From Vibrio gallaecicus (GTDB lineage Bacteria; Pseudomonadota; Gammaproteobacteria; Enterobacterales; Vibrionaceae): 64,000 nucleotides of DNA. The notes beneath the pieces are model-generated. The model was not told the DNA's origin. It saw only the letters and a list, made by a program, of their open reading frames with translations, and made no database searches. A program made the translations under genes and the position numbers. Shown piece by piece: positions 50,960 through 60,652 of this stretch (position 1 is its first letter; every line of letters begins with the position of its first letter). Location of the stretch: the NCBI RefSeq assembly GCF_024347495.1, contig NZ_AP025490.1, positions 124,001-188,000 on the forward strand. Reading direction: 5' to 3'.

Positions 50960-51278
50960 CTGTATGTTTCCACTGTTGTTGGATTGAATGCAGGCTGACA
51001 AGCCAGCACAAAAAGATAGTTCTGCCTCATCAACACTAAGCAATAAAAATGCGAATTGATGAAAATTAGGTCAGAAAAATGGAGGCGAAGAGTAGCATAT
51101 TTCGATCCTTGAGAACAATCATCTTGATCGTTATTTGCTTTCAAAAGATCTTCCTCATGATCGTAAAGCGTAAAACCGTTGTGCAATAAAATGTAATTTC
51201 ACTATTTTAATGTGATCTAGATATAAAGGCGTTGAACTTTTAAACGAAAACCTTACAATCCGCGCAAACGATTAAATG

Positions 51279-51341
51279 CTGTATATATCTAATGAAATGG
51301 ATTAGATGTTTCTACTACCAAGCCTATCTTGGTGACTACAG
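51279..51341 (+). ncRNA. Purine riboswitch, guanine class
   Basis: A complete purine aptamer. P1 is CTGTA with TACAG. P2 is ATCTAAT with ATTAGAT around the loop GAAATGG. J2/3 is GTTTCTAC. P3 is a 7-bp TACCAAG/CTTGGTG stem around CCTAT. J3/1 is ACTAC. The GG in L2 can pair with CC in L3, as in known structures. The specificity base in J3/1 is C (51336), which pairs with guanine or hypoxanthine; adenine forms have U. L3 is five bases, against seven usually. A competing hairpin CTACA/TGTAG (51336-51353) takes the 3' strand of P1, a likely expression switch. It precedes a purine permease. Confidence 0.9.
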
Positions 51342-51418
51342 TTTTTAGTGTAGAAGTACGTCTATTTCACACAGCATTTCAATCTTCAAATTTATTAATT
51401 AATTGCAAAGGTTTCGCT

Positions 51419-55881: not shown

Positions 55882-57264
55882 ATGAAATTAAAACTTGTCA
55901 GTGGCTTGGTGAGCATGGTTATGCTTTCAGGCTGTACGTCAATGATGCAAAAAGATGATTTTGAGAGCTTTAACAATAAGCTCAATACCGGTGATTATAA
56001 TGGAGCTGCTGAAGTGGCTCTTGATCATGCAGGTTATGATGAAGAGTCTGGTGAAACCGATGATCTTCTATGGACGCTTCAAGCTGGCGCCACATTAAAC
56101 TATGTAGGGCAGTATGACTTATCCACTAAGTTATTAGATTCTACAGAAAATATGATGAAGAGCGAAGATACTGAAAGCACAGTGGTAGAAGGCGCTGAGC
56201 TGGTTGGCTCTATGCTGGGTAATGATGCGATGCTTGCTTATGAACAAGCTCATTACGATGGCGTAATGTCTAACACCATTAAAGCTTGGAACTTCATTTC
56301 CCAAAATGATTACCAAAACGCTCGCGTTGAATTAAACCGTGCTGAAGAGCGCCAACGCCGCGCAGCTCAGCACTTCGCTGATGTGATTAAAGAACGCCGA
56401 GCTGAAATCAAAGAAGAGGCGGGCGAATCTGGTGCGCTTGTTAAGCAATCTATGGAATCTGAAGAAACTAAAAAGATTCTAGCAGATGCTGGTATCGAGC
56501 AAGGTCAGTGGAAACCTTATGAAGGCTATGTAAACCCTTTTACTACTTATTCTTACGGTCTAAACCTTCTTCTTACTGGTAAGAGCAAATCTGATTTCCA
56601 GAAGGCAGCTGATTCTTTCAAGCGTGTTTACTCACTAACCGATTCAAAAGCGGCGAAAGCCGATTATGAGCTTGCTCGTTCGATGGCTCGTTCAAATAAC
56701 CAAGACAAACTTGCTAATAAAGTTTGGGTTATCTTTGAAAATGGTCAATCGACAGTACGTGAAGAAAAGCGAATCGACCTCCCTGTCTTCATCCTTTCTG
56801 ACAATGTTTCATACACTGGTATTGCCATTCCACGTCTAAAAGAACGCGGTAAAGCGCTAAATAACATCACTATCGAAGGCAACGACACTGAAACTATCGC
56901 AGATATGGATAAGATCATTGGTGCTGAATTCGACCAAGATTTCCCATACATCCTTGCTCGTGAAATTACTCGTGTAACGTTGAAAACTATCGCTCAAAAA
57001 CAAGTGAAAGACGAAAACGCATTGCTGGGTGATGCATTTGCAATTGTGCAAATGTTAACAACGGGTGCTGATATTCGTTCATTCTCGGCATTACCAAGCG
57101 AGTATCAAGCAACACGTATCGATGCAAAAAATAACACAGTTGAAATTAAAGCAGGGGCATTCACGATTCCTGTTGAACTTGATGCAGATTCAAGCAAACA
57201 CATCATTTATGTAAAAGCGATTTCTCCGGTAATTGAGCCGACAATCAAAGTAGTTAATATCTAA
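55882..57264 (+). CDS. COG3014 family lipoprotein
   Basis: A 460-residue lipoprotein (signal ending LSGC, Cys at 18, then TSMMQKDD). The body is largely helical and TPR-like, with repeated helix-turn-helix segments (DYNGAAEVALDHAG, QYDLSTKLLDSTENMM, NDYQNARVELNRAEERQRRAA, about residues 35-200). A C-terminal beta domain follows (about 290-460). This matches the uncharacterised COG3014. First gene of a four-gene cluster; an LpoB-like gene follows in 9 bp. A scaffold for an envelope complex is my inference. Function unknown. Confidence 0.82.
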   Translation: MKLKLVSGLVSMVMLSGCTSMMQKDDFESFNNKLNTGDYNGAAEVALDHAGYDEESGETDDLLWTLQAGATLNYVGQYDLSTKLLDSTENMMKSEDTESTVVEGAELVGSMLGNDAMLAYEQAHYDGVMSNTIKAWNFISQNDYQNARVELNRAEERQRRAAQHFADVIKERRAEIKEEAGESGALVKQSMESEETKKILADAGIEQGQWKPYEGYVNPFTTYSYGLNLLLTGKSKSDFQKAADSFKRVYSLTDSKAAKADYELARSMARSNNQDKLANKVWVIFENGQSTVREEKRIDLPVFILSDNVSYTGIAIPRLKERGKALNNITIEGNDTETIADMDKIIGAEFDQDFPYILAREITRVTLKTIAQKQVKDENALLGDAFAIVQMLTTGADIRSFSALPSEYQATRIDAKNNTVEIKAGAFTIPVELDADSSKHIIYVKAISPVIEPTIKVVNI

Positions 57265-57273
57265 GGACATATC

Positions 57274-57876
57274 ATGAAAAAATTGGCACTTGCAGCCGCA
57301 GTTGCAGCTCTAACACTTACTGGTTGTGCGACAAAAACAGCGTATATCGATGCATCAGACACTCAAACAAATGTAGTTGCAGCTCTGTCTTACGCTGACT
57401 TCTCAAAAGCAGCGAATGAAATGGCGGAAGAGATCGTCGCAAGTAAATTAATGACGCACCCTCAAGCTGATGAAGGCGGTCGTTACATCGTTTACGTAAA
57501 TGATATCGAAAACGATACGATGCAGCGTTTAGACACTGACCAACTAACAAAAGGTCTGCGCGTTAACTTACTTCAATCAGGTAAGTTTTTAGTAACGACT
57601 GCATTTGGTGAAGACGATGCAACTAAGAAGATGCGTGAGCTAAAAGATTCAAAAATGGTTAAGCAGTCGACAGTGAAGGGTGATGACCAAGTGTTTGCAC
57701 CAGACTTCAGCCTGTCAGGCAAAATCCTACAACGTAATACATCGTTAGATAATGACGACACACGTATCGAATACTACTTCCAGCTATCAATGACTAATGT
57801 AGAAAATGGTCTGGCATATTGGGAAGGCGAACGCGTTGTCGGCAAAGTTGCTGATGGCTCTAGCGTAAGCTGGTAG
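57274..57876 (+). CDS. LpoB-like lipoprotein
   Basis: A 200-residue lipoprotein, signal ending LTGC (Cys at 18). The domain from about 60 to 195 matches LpoB/PBP-activator (PF13036) and the wider TolB-N/CsgG fold: GGRYIVYVNDIENDTMQRLDTDQLTKGLRV (cited in part), LLQSGKFLVTTAF, then DFSLSGKILQR and a terminal YWEGERVVGK. LpoB of E. coli activates PBP1B; here no PBP gene is adjacent and the partner is the COG3014 gene, so a different role is possible. A second, true LpoB may exist elsewhere in the genome. A hairpin (57905-57928) separates it from the next gene. Confidence 0.82.
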   Translation: MKKLALAAAVAALTLTGCATKTAYIDASDTQTNVVAALSYADFSKAANEMAEEIVASKLMTHPQADEGGRYIVYVNDIENDTMQRLDTDQLTKGLRVNLLQSGKFLVTTAFGEDDATKKMRELKDSKMVKQSTVKGDDQVFAPDFSLSGKILQRNTSLDNDDTRIEYYFQLSMTNVENGLAYWEGERVVGKVADGSSVSW

Positions 57877-57904
57877 TAGAGTGATTGATTAGTAAAACAT
57901 AAAA

Positions 57905-57928
57905 AATGGATAGCTTCGGCTATCCATT
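57905..57928 (+). terminator. UUCG hairpin within the envelope cluster
   Basis: Perfect 10-bp stem AATGGATAGC/GCTATCCATT with a TTCG tetraloop. The tail is ATTATTATTA, not a clean T-run. It may be a partial terminator or an mRNA-protecting structure between the two lipoproteins and the two exported proteins. Confidence 0.65.
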
Positions 57929-57952
57929 ATTATTAAGAAAGTTAGGTGACCT

Positions 57953-59395
57953 ATGAAATTTAATAAACTTCTATTAGCGATGATGCTGACAGGCGCAAGC
58001 GCTCCAGCTGTTTTAGCCGAAGAATCGGTTGATACGACAGCCGCAGAAGAATTAGTGGATACAACAACAACGGCAGAAGTACCGGCAGAAGTCTTAGGCG
58101 AGCAATCGGATAAAGATGTTGTTCAAGTAGAAGAAGACGTTGATACCCTAGATGTTGTTGAAGGTAAGCTCGATCGCTATATCACTAAAGTGAAAAGTAG
58201 CTTAGAAAAATCAGGCAAAGCCCATAAAGTCTTTGTATATTCAGGTACGGCTGAATTGAGTGTTAGTAGTAGCGATCCTCGTTGGTCGAAGTATCGAGAA
58301 AGGGCTTTAGAAAAAGCAGTTTTAGATGCTCGAATCTCTTATTTATCGACGTTAAATACGAGCCCTGCGAACAATGTTATTTATTCTATGAATAGTATGA
58401 GTGGTCTACCGATCCCAACGGTTGATGACTTTAAAACTGATTCACAAATGGAAGGCTTCCTCGATAAAGTTATCGCTGTTATCGATGGCAAGCTCGACAG
58501 TGAATTAAAAGAAATGGGCATTGACCCTAAGCAGTTTAATGCTGCTCCACCTGCAATTAAGCGTGACTTATACAAAGAATCTGTAGTTGAGCAAACTGTC
58601 CGTACTTCTTATGGTGACCTGTCAGGCATGGTAGTGGTTAAGCAGTACGAAGAAATCACGGAATCTGGCCACGGAACCATTGGTGTAGTAATGATTTTGT
58701 CTGCGACTAAACGTGACGAAATTAAAGCGATGATCGAATCGCATGGTGAAGTTGCTCCTCAACCTGAGAAAGCGAATACTCAATTTTCATCATTACAACA
58801 GATGTTTTCATCTAAGAAAGACTCTTTATACCTAAAAGCAGGAACCGACGTTTTGTACGATTCGGAAGGTTACCCTCTTATTGTTGCTTATGGCCAGTCG
58901 GGAGTGACTTACTCTAAGTCTTCGACTAAGAAAAAAATTGAGCGCAAAGTAGCGAAAGAGTTTGCGACTAATAATGCATGGGCAAATTTGACTCGTGCGT
59001 ACAATCTTAACGGTGATCTAAAAAGCTCTACGTCAGTTGAAGCACAAGAAAGTGAAAGTGAGAAATTTGAACTGATTATCGACTCTGTTCGTTCTACTTC
59101 TTCAGGCTTAACGCAGTCAATGTATGAAAGCATGGAAAAACGTGCCTCAATGCAGTCCTCAATGCGAAATATGACAGGTGTGAGTGTTGAATATGACTGG
59201 CGTCGTAAGCACCCAGTAACGGGTCATGAAATGGTCGGTTCTGTACTGGTATGGCATCCAAAGAAAGTGACGAATGCGAAGAACTTAGCCAGTGGTAAGA
59301 GCGAAGCGCAGCTAGATCAAGCAGTACAAGAAGAGGTGGTGGGTTCTCGACATTCTGCTGAATCTGAAGATACGTTTGATGCGGCGGATTTCTAA
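57953..59395 (+). CDS. Exported protein of unknown function (DUF6844-like)
   Basis: A 480-residue exported protein. A signal peptide (about 1-22, cleaved near VLA-EE) precedes an acidic, Thr-rich linker (about 23-65). A region at about 85-125 (YSGTAELSVSSSDPRWSKYRERALEKAVLDARI, cited in part) has the strand-helix look of LPP20/FlgT-type domains. A later repeat-like domain (RKVAKEFATNNAWANL) resembles it. I recall a DUF6844 label for such proteins but cannot confirm it. No membrane helix beyond the signal. It abuts the next gene exactly (stop at 59395, start 59396). Confidence 0.75.
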   Translation: MKFNKLLLAMMLTGASAPAVLAEESVDTTAAEELVDTTTTAEVPAEVLGEQSDKDVVQVEEDVDTLDVVEGKLDRYITKVKSSLEKSGKAHKVFVYSGTAELSVSSSDPRWSKYRERALEKAVLDARISYLSTLNTSPANNVIYSMNSMSGLPIPTVDDFKTDSQMEGFLDKVIAVIDGKLDSELKEMGIDPKQFNAAPPAIKRDLYKESVVEQTVRTSYGDLSGMVVVKQYEEITESGHGTIGVVMILSATKRDEIKAMIESHGEVAPQPEKANTQFSSLQQMFSSKKDSLYLKAGTDVLYDSEGYPLIVAYGQSGVTYSKSSTKKKIERKVAKEFATNNAWANLTRAYNLNGDLKSSTSVEAQESESEKFELIIDSVRSTSSGLTQSMYESMEKRASMQSSMRNMTGVSVEYDWRRKHPVTGHEMVGSVLVWHPKKVTNAKNLASGKSEAQLDQAVQEEVVGSRHSAESEDTFDAADF

Positions 59396-60529
59396 ATGAT
59401 AAAAAAGCTTTTATTAATTAGTGCATTTCTATTCGGTGCATCTTCTGTGCAGGCTGCGAGTTACGAAAAAGTAGTGACTACAGGGCAAGGCGAAACGTTA
59501 GATCAAGCGATTGATGTCGGGTTACGTCGAGCTGTAGAACAAGTGTCTGGCGTTTCCATTGATAGCTCTCGAATTTCGACTACGACTTATTCTTCAAATG
59601 GAGATAAAAGCGAAGCGAAAGAGGCGATGATTGATGGTATTCATACGACCGCAAAAGGAAACGTTAAGTACCGAATCTTAAATGAACAGTGCTTAAATGA
59701 CTTCTGTAATGTGAAGCTTGAAGTTAGCGTGAAAGTTGACCCAAGAGATAAGATAAAAGACCTTAACTCTAACCGTCGTACTATTGCTGTAGGGCAATTT
59801 TCAGGACCTAAAGGCTCGACTATCGGTAAAAAAGTACAAGAATTTCTTGTTCAAGACCGTAAGTTTAAAGTCTTAAGTAACCAGAAAGATCCAGCGCTTC
59901 AATACGTTGTTACGGGCAAGGTACTGACGGCTAAGACGCATAAGCGTGTTGTGGATAATTCTCGCACAGTTGAATTAACAGGTGAGAACATCAAAGATGT
60001 GAAGACTTACTACAGTTCTAAAGTGTTAGTTGAGTTTCGCATTGTGGATGTCGTCAATAACCAAGTTAAATGGTCAGCGACGATCCCAACCACTTCAAGC
60101 CGAAATAACTTAAGCTTACTTGTCGATATTGCTTCGAAGAAAGTCTTTACCCAATTGAAAGACAATATCTACCCTTTAGTTTTGCTTGTTGGTGATAATG
60201 GTTCAATGGTGCTTAACTCGGGTGGTTCAACGGTTAAGAAAGGTCAGTACTACGATGTATTTAGTCTAGGTGAAAAGTTTGTTGATCCTGTGACTAAAGA
60301 AAGCCTTGGTCGTGATGAAGTCAAAGTGGGAACAGTAAAAGTGACGAAGGTTTTACCTAAACTAGCGTACGTTACTGTAGTGAAAGGGGATGCCAGTGCG
60401 ATTAAAACGAAGAGTATAGCGAGAAAGTCTACTTATGCTCCTCGACCAAAAAAATCAGCAGCAAAACCTAAAGCAGCACCCGTTAAGAAAAAAGATGACA
60501 CGCCATCTGCAGGCGGAATCATTCTTTAA
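59396..60529 (+). CDS. Exported FlgT/CsgG-like protein
   Basis: A 377-residue exported protein. Signal peptide about 1-20 (SSVQA-AS). An LPP20/FlgT-N-like domain covers about 22-115 (TTGQGETLDQAIDVGLRRAVEQVSG, cited in part). A TolB-N/CsgG-like fold spans about 125-260 (RRTIAVGQFSG, FKVLSNQKD, VEFRIVDVVNNQVKWSATIP). A C-terminal SH3-like domain resembles FlgT-C (KGQYYDVFSLGEKFVDP), then a Lys/Pro/Ala tail. It is not lipidated. Domain order matches FlgT of the Vibrio flagellar H-ring, but it lies outside any flagellar locus. Translationally coupled to the preceding gene; function unknown. Confidence 0.78.
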   Translation: MIKKLLLISAFLFGASSVQAASYEKVVTTGQGETLDQAIDVGLRRAVEQVSGVSIDSSRISTTTYSSNGDKSEAKEAMIDGIHTTAKGNVKYRILNEQCLNDFCNVKLEVSVKVDPRDKIKDLNSNRRTIAVGQFSGPKGSTIGKKVQEFLVQDRKFKVLSNQKDPALQYVVTGKVLTAKTHKRVVDNSRTVELTGENIKDVKTYYSSKVLVEFRIVDVVNNQVKWSATIPTTSSRNNLSLLVDIASKKVFTQLKDNIYPLVLLVGDNGSMVLNSGGSTVKKGQYYDVFSLGEKFVDPVTKESLGRDEVKVGTVKVTKVLPKLAYVTVVKGDASAIKTKSIARKSTYAPRPKKSAAKPKAAPVKKKDDTPSAGGIIL

Positions 60530-60623: not shown

Positions 60624-60652
60624 AAAAAGCCTTTGAAATTCAGAGGCTTTTT
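60624..60652. terminator. Terminator after envelope cluster
   Basis: Stem AAAAAGCCT/AGGCTTTTT with partial inner pairing, between the cluster and convergent yicC. Confidence 0.85.

Follow-up and report, generated by a model that had tools for sequence, protein, structure and literature searches.

Three-domain FlgT has been studied as part of a flagellar ring, and LpoB as an activator of the peptidoglycan synthase PBP1B. In Vibrio, FlgT and FlgO, along with FlgP, make up an outer-membrane structure, the H-ring (PMC6504787, PMC7693769), and a long, disordered, Pro-rich linker is described, in excerpts of PMC4632607, as letting LpoB reach PBP1B. Here we describe a cluster of four adjacent open reading frames (ORFs), g1, g2, g3 and g4, all on the + strand, in Vibrio gallaecicus (genome G000; two contigs, 5.13 Mb); the window, below, is the whole 64,000-nucleotide stretch analysed (NZ_AP025490.1, positions 124,001 to 188,000). 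The cluster is real and co-conserved, and is built from FlgT- and LpoB-type parts. As a preliminary description of the window had stated, two lipoproteins are followed by two exported proteins: g1 and g2 carry lipoboxes (LSGC and LTGC, both at Cys18) with Thr and Ala at the +2 position, as the sorting rule expects of outer-membrane lipoproteins, Sec-type signal sequences were seen by eye at the N termini of g3 and g4, and the last two genes abut exactly, g3 ending at 59395 and g4 beginning at 59396. By analogy with the H-ring, the four products may assemble, independently of a flagellum, into an H-ring-like ring or collar that sits at the periplasmic face of the outer membrane and is coupled to a lipoprotein module of LpoB type, a reading to which we give about an even chance of being right.

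The FlgT-like domain order attributed earlier to g4 (98% identity to a protein of Vibrio sp. 99-70-13A1) was borne out: the top Foldseek match of its AlphaFold2 model (pLDDT 78.3, pTM 0.58) was FlgT (3w1e, E 5.8e-17), with the N-M-C architecture of FlgT and the N domain the least sure. g4 itself passed no Pfam or NCBIfam cut-off, FlgT models included, and the only PF16538 match in the genome was the flagellar FlgT, whose gene, like flgO and flgP, lies elsewhere in the genome; FlgO gave a weak match to FlgT_M. Domains found among 37 relatives of g4 were CsgG (25), LpoB (22), FlgT_M (10), TolB_N (7), FlgT_C (5) and FlgT_N (4). The expectation that at least two of the four proteins share a fold also held, g2 and the g4 middle domain having an LpoB/CsgG-type fold in common (profile-profile 91.6%, E 8e-7); g1 and g3 gave no sign of this fold. 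When the g4 profile was compared with PDB sequences, the C domain matched TsaP (6ve2_O, E 7.7e-11) and the middle domain CsgG (2.6e-4). The best fold matches of the middle domain included CsgG and PelC, a dodecamer, and on this likeness g4 and g2 might oligomerise in the manner of CsgG or PelC and let a substrate through, as a secretion or export channel. We judge such a channel improbable. CsgG has membrane-spanning insertions, for which the g4 middle domain (~130 residues) leaves no room, both faces of the long g3 strands (353-401) are polar, and no common substrate gene was present among the flanks listed. g4 also differs from the CsgG/PelC ring lipoproteins in having no lipobox in its sequence, and no csg or pel genes were noticed in the loci read, csg not having been searched by family.

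Partner genes were surveyed in 36 genomes carrying g3 and/or g4, several of them drafts of uncertain completeness. A secretin match was found in 31/36 carriers, which, taken with the TsaP match, would suit a TsaP-like collar encircling a type IV pilus or a type II secretin; the chance of this appears slim, as no secretin was matched in five carriers, some of them drafts (the two Chlorobium-group genomes and three Acetobacteraceae), and a Pfam search found no LysM domain in g4. FlgH was without a match in 10/36 carriers. UB2H, the dock of PBP1B, gave a strong match in 21/36, a weak or partial match in 7/36 (that of G440 being perhaps a real domain) and none in 8/36, and both Chlorobium-group genomes were without a UB2H, FlgH or secretin match. 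Around the cluster itself, PBP1B, curli and flagellar genes were absent by eye from the ORFs listed, in agreement with the preliminary description. Like the Vibrio H-ring locus, the cluster groups the gene for an exported, FlgT-like protein of three domains with those for a small lipoprotein from the same fold class and for one more protein; it differs in that no flagellar genes were seen nearby, in its occurrence in carriers without a FlgH match, and in that g3 is large, non-lipidated and duplicated and g1 has no H-ring counterpart.

The lipoprotein g1, labelled COG3014 in the preliminary description, passed no Pfam or NCBIfam cut-off; its matches were of TPR type and mostly weak, and it is predicted to have TPR-like helices and, towards the C terminus, a region of unassigned fold. 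g2 matched LpoB (PF13036, 1.2e-36; TIGR02722 also over cut-off), and PBP1B with UB2H is present in the same genome. These findings favour a peptidoglycan-synthase regulator, in which g2 would be a second LpoB stimulating PBP1B or another class A penicillin-binding protein (PBP), with g1, g3 and g4 as an outer-membrane scaffold, as does the presence of PBP1B with UB2H in the Endozoicomonas-type and related genomes G433-G437, where g2 is the sole LpoB-family gene besides g4. We nevertheless hold the regulator to be unlikely. From Cys to domain, the tether of g2 has 23 residues and 0 Pro, and those of g2-type proteins 22-27 residues and 0-4 Pro, against 49-60 residues and 15-20 Pro in the linker-type LpoB of Klebsiella and three Oceanimonas/Oceanisphaera genomes (four cluster rows were without a clear lipobox by pattern, one start was overlong, and in the Francisella-type L068 the pattern picked an earlier Cys). 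Since these tethers are short and low in Pro and UB2H was missing or weak in 15/36 carriers, the known LpoB-PBP1B mechanism is unlikely, on sequence grounds, to apply in all carriers, and the automatic label 'PBP activator LpoB' becomes questionable for short-tether members. The g2 of the window fell in a clade separate from canonical LpoB (36 vs 16 rows, branch 100/100) and does not sit near thiK (gene names by eye); the cluster g2 proteins inside the canonical clade came from two gamma genomes (L012/L039, L040) and from Francisella-type genomes.

The second, and stronger, LpoB of the genome is encoded at C1:2052532, in a neighbourhood of hinT, a g1 homologue, ycfL and lpoB, with thiK and ycfP further on (lpoB-side genes named by eye from comparison with the annotated locus of Klebsiella, ycfL by Pfam); here and in G430, lpoB is separated from thiK by further ORFs. 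The canonical g1 copy (L072:6574-8007) matched the hidden Markov model of g1 at E 2e-49, and the hinT-g1-ycfL-lpoB run was present in 6/6 Vibrionaceae genomes read (this one and five other carriers). Judged by their sequences, g1 and g2 have paralogues in the lpoB neighbourhood of this genome, a kinship that is new here, was unnamed in the preliminary description, and counts in favour of the regulator. In both places genes of the g1 and g2 families are neighbours, and in many distant clusters ycfL also lies between them: an extra gene lay between g1 and g2 in 13/40 cluster loci, and in 8/8 of those scanned it matched YcfL/DUF1425, six of them over cut-off. They differ in that g3 and g4 are absent from the Vibrionaceae lpoB neighbourhood and in the separate clade of the window g2. 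YcfL was found in 21/36 carrier genomes. LpoB and YcfL are reported from V. cholerae vesicles in excerpts of PMC6883915, which fits a location of the canonical module at the outer membrane.

The thiK-side LpoB of Vibrionaceae (L072:5497-6087, L109-L113) was also without a Pro-rich tether, which Oceanimonas-type genomes retain. As the thiK-side copy of Vibrio is as short as g2, tether length alone cannot separate the two, and an E. coli-style reach of Vibrio LpoB to PBP1B may be open to doubt.

Pairwise divergence was correlated at r 0.94 for g1-g2 and r 0.90 for g3-g4, compared with 0.67-0.80 for the other pairs, in each case without a genome-wide background, and a smaller set blurs the contrast. 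In the draft genome G260, g3-g4 lay on one contig and g1-ycfL-lpoB on another. We read the cluster as two sub-modules, lipoproteins (g1-g2) and ring proteins (g3-g4), that are often joined.

The product of g3, which the preliminary description had also left unnamed, matched DUF6844 (PF20891, 4.1e-35) and is an internal duplication with related halves at approximately residues 88-255 and 290-440. It has a solved homologue in FTT_1539c of Francisella (PDB 4qvr), to which its profile aligned near full-length at 1.1e-60. The C terminus of g3 reads A-D-F, and its homologues end in D-F in 30/38 cases and in F/W/Y in 38/38 (ORFs called mechanically; relatives not independent); among the 368 remaining ORFs of the same loci with 200 aa or more, the corresponding numbers are 3 for D-F and 56 for F/W/Y, with 16 ending in F. 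In the place of g3, the g3-less Desulfuromonas locus has a 257-aa exported protein ending ADDF, and the g3-less Chlorobium group has Pro-rich ORFs of 86 and 123 aa ending EYDF; in the other five g3-less loci (Acetobacteraceae) g2 and g4 overlap, with nothing between. The tails of g4 end by lineage in GGVIL, GGVxLPFD, NRSMFD or otherwise. We infer that the C-terminal tails of g3 and g4 are docking peptides.

In Francisella, FTT1537c-FTT1540c are annotated as an operon (PMC4696196), which resembles the cluster in encoding the LpoB-family FTT_1540c (K07337, PMC8149597) and the DUF6844 protein FTT_1539c. The Francisella-type loci differ in their order, g2-g3-g4-g1 (read in three genomes, one matched to F. 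philomiragia), and in having g2 in the canonical LpoB clade; by position in these genomes, FTT1538c would be g4-like and FTT1537c g1-like. According to excerpts of the sources, insertion into FTT1538c led to attenuation in mice, a result for which confidence intervals overlapped and polar effects are possible (PMC4696196), FTT_1539c is immunoreactive (PMC10963506, PMC4207810) and an FTT_1538c homologue is listed in vesicles (PMC6795709). The cluster supplies a genomic context for FTT_1539c, a solved immunoreactive protein without an assigned role.

With the g4 alignment as query, a search of a single genome per species yielded 40 named loci, many of them in metagenome bins. Loci with g4 were found in Vibrio, Grimontia, Aliivibrio, Oceanimonas, Oceanisphaera, Endozoicomonas-type bacteria, a Methylococcales symbiont, Marinobacter, Planctobacterium, Acetobacteraceae, Desulfuromonas, Chlorobium-group, Verrucomicrobia, Victivallales, Kiritimatiellae, Desulfurobacteriaceae and others. 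The gene order is conserved across several phyla, with g1-g2-g3-g4 in 25 loci, g1-g2-g4 in 8, g2-g3-g4 in 3 (one cut contig), g4-g3 in 1, g3-g4 in 1 (cut contig) and g4 only in 2 (one cut contig). The co-conservation on which the preliminary description depended was therefore largely kept but incomplete, since 8/40 loci were without g3 and seven others deviated, and its interpretation is supported in part, by the shared fold and the FlgT architecture. DUF6844 was present in 7/148 genomes of the genus and 8/369 of the class sample, the flanking genes listed differed among loci, and on an Azospirillum plasmid the order was a hypothetical protein, YcfL, LpoB, DUF6844 and a further hypothetical protein. 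This patchiness would suit co-inherited, non-interacting envelope proteins kept together by lateral transfer, an explanation that we find very improbable given the same order across phyla, the correlated divergence and the conserved g3 tail.

In the proposed ring, g1 and g2 would form the base at the outer membrane's inner leaflet, copies of g4 would pack against one another through their middle domains, which are CsgG/PelC-like, a second tier would come from g3, and the C-terminal tails, that of g3 ending D-F and that of g4, would dock into this lipoprotein base. The likely output would be a scaffold that ties the outer membrane to the underlying periplasmic layer, rather than PBP1B activation. 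Transferred from the H-ring, g4 would take the place of FlgT, g2 that of FlgO, as both are small lipoproteins of the same fold class, and g3 that of FlgP, the weakest step. Several points weigh against this proposal. The ring itself and its role are inferred, and the g4 fold also occurs in LptE, TolB and PqiC, which are not known for rings. g3 matched FlgT-N weakly, with no profile match to the g4 N domain, and is not indispensable, being absent from the eight loci that keep g1-g2-g4. Francisella-type loci have a shorter g4 (308-328 aa) with g1 last, the absence counts for UB2H, FlgH and secretin come partly from the drafts, and the solitary g2 of G433-G437 makes an activator role possible there. 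More broadly, and as a tentative view that we regard as somewhat doubtful, the cluster could encode an undescribed multi-phylum outer-membrane ring machine, a g1-YcfL-g2 module carrying a g3-g4 ring locked by tail peptides, with the H-ring and LpoB as specialised descendants or cousins of one envelope kit. If the proposed ring is true, it would offer a testable relative of the H-ring that does without a flagellum and joins FlgT and LpoB folds, and this fold-joining cluster is found also in genomes without a FlgH, secretin or UB2H match.

Coordinates of the cluster and its sequence elements in the window
Feature	Position	Strand	Description
g1	55882..57264	+	460 aa; predicted outer-membrane lipoprotein, Cys18
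g2	57274..57876	+	200 aa; predicted lipoprotein, LpoB family, short tether
Stem-loop, g2/g3 gap	57905..57928	.	10-bp stem, 4-base loop
g3	57953..59395	+	480 aa; predicted exported DUF6844 protein
g3 conserved C-terminal tail codons (Ala-Asp-Phe)	59384..59392	+	tail survey of 38 homologues
g4	59396..60529	+	377 aa; predicted exported FlgT-like protein
g4 N domain, residues 22-114, FlgT_N position	59459..59737	+	residues 54-88: low model confidence
g4 middle domain, residues 128-258	59777..60169	+	LpoB/CsgG/PelC/TolB-N fold
g4 C domain, residues 261-345	60176..60430	+	FlgT_C / TsaP-type beta domain
g4 Lys/Pro/Ala-rich tail	60431..60526	+	mostly low model confidence; ends GGIIL
Terminator-like hairpin 3' of g4	60624..60652	+	consensus scan

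The stem-loop between g2 and g3 was terminator-like on the other strand only (consensus scan). Ten relatives were tried for comparison, of which eight had a g2-g3 gap of >20 nt, and stem-loops of differing sequence lay in the same spot in 7/8 of these (<= -9.8 kcal/mol, no shuffle control), the exception being L020.

Further genes were seen beside relatives of the cluster. The Azospirillum plasmid copy (L120:10296-13053) lies close to a ~19.9 kb gene for an Ig-like-domain protein. In Aliivibrio and some Vibrio loci a ~630-aa exported protein, absent from the window, follows the cluster (L010:10781-12685, L020:10168-12063, L021:10208-12112, L022:4569-6473; L021 is the L010 genome). In one gamma genome g3 and g4 are separated by a 485-aa exported protein of unassigned family (L069:4890-6347), and exported proteins of ~375 and ~220 aa precede g4 in two loci, replacing g1-g2 (L043:6993-8831, L051:6242-8060). 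Elsewhere in the window, a purine riboswitch (RF00167, 53.6 bits, 51259-51358, +) overlaps the start of a 486-aa ORF called at 51329, by its looks a purine permease, the true start of which is therefore probably further downstream.

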